From a virus: a stretch of DNA of 28,654 nt. The stretch covers positions 1 through 28,654 of the IMG/VR virus record IMGVR_UViG_3300043015_002321; one strand, given 5' to 3'. Numbering within the stretch: position 1 is the stretch's first letter; each line of letters opens with the position of its first letter. The translations under genes were made by a program, and so were the position numbers. This document shows positions 6,875 to 7,309 of this stretch, in pieces. Below the pieces are notes generated by a model. That model did no database searches. It worked only from the letters and a program-made list of their open reading frames with translations, and was not told the origin of the DNA.

Positions 6875-7216
6875 ATGAAATCAGAACTAAACTCAGACAT
6901 CACGCAGGAGGCTGTTGCCAGCGACGACTTGTTAGCCCTTCTTCGGGGTGGAAAGCTCGAATACAACCAAGAGGACGTTGAGAACGTGCTAAAGGCATAC
7001 GTCCAATGCAAAATGTTCGATGATGTGCTGAAGTGCGTTGGACTCGACGGTCTGCCTGACCCCGACGACGAACATGCCCGAGAACTGTCAGACCTCGAAG
7101 ATTGGATGGTCGGTGCATTCCAAGAGATCGACAAAATCCGAGGGATCGAAATCCGGACAGACGCCAAATGCAGGGAAGATCTCGCCGCCATAGTGACGCA
7201 ATTTGGTGAGGGCTAA
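6875..7216 (+). CDS. Hypothetical protein, possible integron-cassette gene
   Basis: 113 residues, strongly acidic and helical (LNSDITQEAVASDDLLALLRGG; EARELSDLEDWMVGAFQ-like pattern), with one Cys near the middle and one near the end. No family recognised. Its TAA stop (7214-7216) sits inside the left outer box (GGCTAAC) of the attC-like structure at 7211-7309, which is exactly how genes sit in integron cassettes. No matching GTTRRRY core was found upstream of the gene, so the left cassette boundary is unclear. The gene lies 58 bases after the previous one and no promoter is obvious. Confidence 0.6.
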   Translation: MKSELNSDITQEAVASDDLLALLRGGKLEYNQEDVENVLKAYVQCKMFDDVLKCVGLDGLPDPDDEHARELSDLEDWMVGAFQEIDKIRGIEIRTDAKCREDLAAIVTQFGEG

Positions 7217-7309
7217 CGCCCAAGGTGAGCCATGCGATCCGAACGAAAGACGATGAAAAACACAAAAGAAGATACAGAGGATAGCATTGGCTCCACCGCC
7301 TTGTTAGGC
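7211..7309 (+). repeat. attC: attC-like site (integron cassette recombination site)
   Basis: Reads in attC order. R'' box GGCTAAC (7211-7217), 6-base unpaired spacer, L'' GGTGAGCC (7224-7231), a variable stem-loop, L' GGCTCCACC (7289-7297), 5-base spacer, R' GTTAGGC (7303-7309, a perfect GTTRRRY core). L'' and L' pair fully except one extra C in L', the extrahelical base that marks attC sites. The stem continues inwards: ATGCGATCC (7232-7240) pairs with GGATAGCAT (7279-7287) with one mismatch. One mismatch also lies between R'' and R'. The upstream gene's stop is within R''. No integron integrase is in the window. Confidence 0.7.

Follow-up and report, generated by a model that had tools for sequence, protein, structure and literature searches.

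A predicted reversed integron gene cassette carrying a methyltransferase gene, with start codons inside its attC site, in a viral genome record

The window analyzed was the whole virus record IMGVR_UViG_3300043015_002321, comprising 28,654 bases with matches to terminase, capsid/protease, tape-measure, holin, and endolysin. Two methyltransferase genes of different types were assigned in it by Pfam. The features considered here are as follows (a slash within a box marks the predicted cut).

3221-4372: C5-cytosine methyltransferase gene, the second methyltransferase type of the phage
6191-6250, minus strand: possible third attC (21.4 bits, E 0.0073)
6818-6937, minus strand: possible decayed attC at the front end of the 113-aa gene, which it overlaps, weak (scan score 16.0; 16.8 bits, E 0.1)
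6875-7216, plus strand: gene for a 113-aa protein of unknown function, shared with viral contig L002
7211-7309, true top strand minus: attC site, from anatomy, covariance model, and orientation by the extra base
7211-7217, minus strand: true R' box, GTTAGCC on minus and GGCTAAC on plus; predicted cut 7216/7217
7224-7233, minus strand: true L' arm, GGTGAGCCAT
7234-7286: variable terminal structure, containing start codon 7253, with start codon 7232 at its base
7287-7297, minus strand: true L'' arm with the extra base, TTGGCTCCACC; unpaired C7293 or C7294 on plus
7303-7309, minus strand: true R'' box, GCCTAAC on minus and GTTAGGC on plus; conserved in aligned sites
7217-8131, minus strand: predicted gene cassette of 915 bp, consisting of attC and a methyltransferase gene antisense to attC
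7232-8131, plus strand: N6_N4_Mtase gene; the product has 299 aa if started at ATG 7232 and 292 aa if started at ATG 7253
8126-8132, minus strand: second cassette boundary box GCCTAA/C, containing the methyltransferase stop TAA 8129-8131
14278-15513: recombinase gene, matching phage integrase models and, weakly, XerC/D models

An integron attC site at 7211-7309 had been proposed in a preliminary description of this DNA, and all the elements named there were found: the GTTAGGC core, spacers of 6 and 5 bases, the arms, the unpaired C, and a stop codon in the left box, where TAA 7214-7216 of the upstream gene lies within GGCTAAC. The R boxes carry AAC/GTT, the L arms are paired with an extrahelical base, and the spacers are unpaired. 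The R' box (GTTAGCC) differs by one base from the exact GTTRRRY, with the GTT at the cut present; this mismatch was not considered to exclude the site because R' varies in the viral relatives and activity is judged by assay. None of 200 dinucleotide shuffles folded as well as the site on either strand (z -3.4 and -4.2), and the site scored 15 in a generic grammar scan, compared with 14 for the best of 50 whole-window shuffles. The preliminary description had suggested a covariance-model search, in which a missing hit was to count against the site. A model built here from 13 other attC sites (nine chromosomal ones of a Verrucomicrobiota MAG and four viral ones), without that of the window, matched 7211-7309 at 69.0 bits (E 8.7e-15, E-values of this model being rough). 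The same model recognized the unrelated aadA1 attC of R100 at 30.2 bits on the expected strand, and the short attC sites of TJE1 were unreported by it; the window site was unmatched in Rfam at the gathering threshold. Judged by its sequence, 7211-7309 is a genuine attC-type site, for which recombination by an integron integrase is predicted. Its exact L'-R' pattern had no occurrence in the viral contigs, and a comparison with phage records gave only a 32-nt low-score match to an Olleya phage.

Scanning genome contigs with the right-arm pattern yielded 12 loci, of which 11 lacked attC anatomy by eye. The remaining one (L012), in the Verrucomicrobiota MAG JAUVVA01, had two right-arm sites 575 bp apart. 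This MAG encodes an integron integrase (TIGR02249, 415.5 bits) and carries nine attC sites in three contigs. Its integron resembles the window in the size of its attC sites (99-100 nt), the 6/5 spacers, and the right arm, the 23-nt window sequence TTGGCTCCACCGCCTTGTTAGGC being identical to that of one attC of the L012 array. It differs in that its main ORFs are on the canonical strand and no reversed start lies inside any of the nine attC sites. The attC pattern TAACGNCCAAG..TTGTTRGGC was found in one of 387 Verrucomicrobiota genomes, so that the assignment of a Verrucomicrobiota host is only suggestive. An integron integrase scored over the curated cut-off in 22 of the 115 Verrucomicrobiota genomes searched. 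At 20 Verrucomicrobiota intI loci, seven attC sites were found, all in three loci (one with a start inside and five canonical), a small number because the scanner was tuned to the window-type attC shape.

An attC site is nearly symmetric, and its direction is set by the extra base. In R100, the extra base is in the arm adjoining aadA1, which reads toward attC. The three attC sites found in phage TJE1 all agree with the gene direction, and the main ORFs between the sites of the Verrucomicrobiota arrays are on the agreeing strand (4/9 by an automatic rule). The extra base in the window is in the arm facing the methyltransferase gene; thus, the site has minus as its true top strand and 7211-7217 as its cut box, with the cassette extending to the right. 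Among the aligned viral sites, the left boxes vary and the right boxes are conserved, a pattern that an R' on the left would predict. The R''-L''-L'-R' layout given earlier therefore held for its parts, all of which are present, but not for their order and strand; likewise, the upstream gene does end with its stop codon in the left box, but this box is R' and not R''.

Integron cassettes normally have attC behind the gene, and the preliminary description had assumed such a canonical cassette of approximately 6850-7309, in which the 113-aa gene is followed by the attC. The stop codon in the left box and the perfect GTTAGGC of the right box agree with this reading, whereas the extra base is on the wrong side, the boxes vary on the left and not on the right, and the related units of viral contigs L059 and L019/L031 described below extend rightward. 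The 113-aa gene also argues against it. One relative was found in viral contigs (L002, 92% amino acid identity), and the DNA similarity between the two was confined to 6849-7224 of a 10-kb locus at the cut-off used. No attC was visible in L002 after the stop codon of the homologue; a relative keeping the gene without attC is nearly what the preliminary description had named as evidence against its unit. The 113-aa protein was unmatched in phage records. A canonical cassette at 6850-7309 is thus very improbable, and the orientation and cassette extent given earlier are wrong. Three features put the cassette at 7217-8131 instead: the extra base, the box in which the methyltransferase gene stops, and the extent of the units in L059 and L019/L031.

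Cutting both boxes before the C (GGCTAA/C and GCCTAA/C) releases a 915-bp unit of 7217-8131, both boundaries of which are recombination boxes. Its methyltransferase gene reads away from attC, whereas the gene of a canonical cassette lies upstream and reads toward attC; the unit works like an integron cassette and is not a canonical one. The recombinase at 14278-15513 was unmatched by the integron integrase model TIGR02249, and no IntI was found in the record, which bears out the earlier remark that an integron integrase is missing from this phage; the record thus falls outside complete integrons, which are defined by an intI gene. Mobility of the cassette is inferred because no integron integrase was found in the record. 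An exact search of the viral contigs for the empty site of the window gave 0 matches. Reads crossing GGTGAGGGCTAA/CAGTTG, or a 915-bp circle, would support mobility.

Over a 1.2-kb part of the window, attC-like scores were 69.0, 21.4 (E 0.0073), and 16.8 bits (E 0.1); a CALIN is defined by at least two attC sites near each other and no intI. A minus-strand ORF (6200-6463) ends inside the attC-like site 6191-6250, in the canonical orientation. The single strong site, the weakness of the flanking ones, and the lack of IntI in the window would also fit a relic, that is, an attC that illegitimate recombination had carried over from a chromosomal integron of the host, with accidental starts and an immobile cassette. 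However, the 915-bp unit is intact with both boxes, the frame from ATG to the enzyme is free of stops, and the same anatomy precedes unrelated genes in other viral contigs. We consider a relic unlikely, although it is the most probable of the alternatives.

Two start codons, ATG 7232 and ATG 7253, lie inside attC in frame with the methyltransferase, and the frame reads ..GSTALLG..; the first methyltransferase residues would therefore be encoded by attC. There is no in-frame stop between ATG and the enzyme domain. The Pfam N6_N4_Mtase domain starts at residue 68, numbered from ATG 7232, and the phage homologues among the matches listed align from residue 16 at the earliest and mostly from 36-58, numbered from ATG 7253. 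AAGG at 7222-7225 on the plus strand precedes ATG 7232 and could act as a Shine-Dalgarno sequence; an alternative start is GTG at residue 51. Two genes of other viral contigs leave little choice of start: no ATG, GTG, or TTG is in frame between the start in attC and the enzyme domain in L084, and only one TTG is in L094. Furthermore, the reading frame of the right box differs from gene to gene, so that it is conserved as DNA with no shared peptide behind the conservation. For these two reasons, translation initiation inside attC is likely. Peptide patterns retrieved no relatives of the methyltransferase from viral contigs. Judging from its family, the enzyme probably protects the phage DNA from host restriction by methylating it. 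An inverted repeat with 22-nt arms 3 nt apart and 95% complementarity is located at 7326-7372, between attC and the enzyme domain and within the methyltransferase frame; it is a possible operator or methylation target.

Relatives of the site were gathered by scanning viral contigs with patterns close to the window attC; most of the 44 pattern loci lacked attC anatomy by eye and were kept in the scanned set. In four contigs (L017, L019, L041, and L059), a leader of the form ..ESTALLG or ESTVLLG.. continues into proteins that are unrelated. L059 has a direct repeat, one copy of which is interrupted by the cassette (6697-7556) while the adjacent copy is intact. The joined flanks agree with the uninterrupted copy in 89 of 91 bases, with the join at T/C; L059 thus keeps its exact empty site in the adjacent repeat. 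On the minus strand, this site is G/AT; the consensus of IntI1 is GNT according to the accessible part of PMC4618277. L019 and L031 share an attC-plus-gene unit (349 bp at 91%) in different surroundings, running from attC to TGGCC(C/G)AA; they also share a 123-bp block (74%) at non-corresponding places. The stop codon of L041 is beyond its box and is provided by the flank, and in six contigs (L088, L092, L097, L084, L101, and L095) the gene-end box is directly followed by sequence resembling the next attC. Near-identical attC sites (108-112 bp, 94-96%) were found twice in L089, in L102/L105/L107, and in L085/L095, with similarity stopping at the boxes. As they occur in different contigs or ahead of different sequences, they are material for the question of how genes acquire attC. 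The attC sites of L102 and L081 were unmatched in phage records.

Pfam was run on 22 proteins, namely the window methyltransferase, the 113-aa protein, and 20 more. N6_N4_Mtase was matched by the window, L084, and L090, and below the cut-off by L017, a weak methyltransferase match; MT-A70 by L090; and PAPS_reduct by L059, a PAPS reductase, and L094. Radical_SAM was below the cut-off in L102, Cro (L085) and DUF5817 (L098) were far below it, and the remaining proteins were unmatched. The methyltransferase cassette is seen, on sequence features, as a member of a putative class of reversed cassettes in several environmental viral contigs.

Hairpins recurring at gene borders, a start codon in the loop, and AAGG beside the stem would also be expected of a phage hairpin module unrelated to integrons, placed at start codons for translation regulation or homologous exchange of accessory genes. 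Such a module does not account for the extra base, 6/5 spacers, and R boxes that match chromosomal attC sites in an intI genome, for the L059 junctions, which are exact at T/C and A/C, the positions predicted for IntI, or for the conservation of a right box that no shared peptide explains. This reading is the least probable of all, slightly below the canonical cassette.

A strand-aware scan of 717,629 bp of viral loci yielded 40 distinct sites at a score of at least 18, compared with 0 in one mononucleotide shuffle of the same bases. Under a strict rule (ATG inside attC, frame closed upstream, and 50 codons beyond), a gene start in the reversed direction was inside 16 of the 40 sites and in the other direction inside three; 500 random placements gave a mean of 6.0 (sd 2.3, max 16), and these counts are not independent since viral sites share lineages. 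At least one of the random placements reached the observed 16, and 24 of the 40 sites had no such start inside under this rule; a start inside attC is not universal among viral sites. At a score of at least 17, the strict rule gave 23/56 (random 8.3, sd 2.6, max 18). A looser rule without the closed frame gave 21/40 against a random 15.7 (sd 3.0), which is no clear excess, and the strict rule was adopted after this statistic failed to separate. Looser-rule controls with a reversed start inside were 0/9 in the MAG, 0/3 in TJE1, and 0/1 in R100; the strict-rule control at Verrucomicrobiota intI loci was one of seven attC sites.

IntI scored over the cut-off in two of the 18 viral records searched (G397 and G401), both of which may be fragments. 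In G397 (locus L116, 2221-4077), intI has two start-in-attC genes beside it, and there are tape-measure and tail-fibre matches. No phage structural match was found among the five ORFs tested in G401. L117 was grouped with L116 as a viral intI locus carrying start-in-attC genes.

Overall, we assign a probability of roughly three in four to the reading that the attC forms the 5' end of a gene cassette that is reversed and self-starting, with the methyltransferase as cargo. A host-cell integron integrase would bind the folded plus strand of the window (the bottom strand of attC) and cut GGCTAA/C, and the unit 7217-8131 would be inserted or excised as a circle. Ribosomes would start inside attC and produce the enzyme with an attC-encoded leader, needing no start signal at the new site; the stop codon of the methyltransferase lies in the next box. 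In the phage, the gene and its upstream neighbours are read in one direction. With an attC in front that brings the start codon, a captured gene could be used by a phage anywhere in an operon.

Cassettes in phage DNA without an integrase had been called little documented, which is outdated: the accessible part of Qi et al. 2023 (PMC9892861) reports 17 CALINs in phages, and IntI1 recombined five of the six phage attC sites tested there. The CALIN phages named are Tetrasphaera phage TJE1, Polaribacter phage P12002L, and Pseudoalteromonas phage PH101, and, as far as described in that part, they resemble the window in having attC without an integrase and an N6_N4 methyltransferase as cargo. In our own scan, which covered TJE1 and not P12002L or PH101, all three attC sites were canonical and none had a gene start inside, whereas the window gene is reversed and probably starts in attC. 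ORF-11 in attI1 (PMC8876359, accessible part) is similar in that a translation start in a recombination site aids the adjacent cassette, but it is a separate attI peptide acting by coupling, while the attC residues of the window would be fused to the enzyme. The Treponema integrons (PMC3607928, accessible part) are similar in that gene direction relates atypically to the integrase, and differ in that intI points toward attI, the way the cassette genes run; starts within attC are not mentioned in that part. The literature searched, largely excluding subscription papers, contained no report of reversed cassettes with a start codon in attC; phage attC clusters are known, and such cassettes are apparently unreported.

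These results suggest that viruses can swap ready-to-translate genes via the integron system. A broader proposal, the odds of which we regard as evenly balanced, is that reversed cassettes form a class of their own in phages whose hosts are uncultured bacteria, Verrucomicrobiota perhaps among them. In these cassettes, attC would serve as recombination site, start, and leader, giving immediate expression of any captured frame, and host integrases would use the units to shuffle DNA-modification and other accessory genes among phages. If true, phages would be a reservoir and vehicle of cassettes, and part of the turnover of anti-restriction genes would be explained.

Two further viral loci carried attC sites. 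In L060/L061 (1414-1490, reverse strand), an attC of the family described here has no long frame through the site and is possibly a gene-less or canonical cassette. L120 (G392, 7713-10907) contains seven attC sites of 93-96 nt at a spacing of approximately 410-580 bp. Some of the copies open only frames of 36-39 aa, some carry the leader MTTLPD..ESSALLG, and the last one precedes a frame resembling PAPS reductase.
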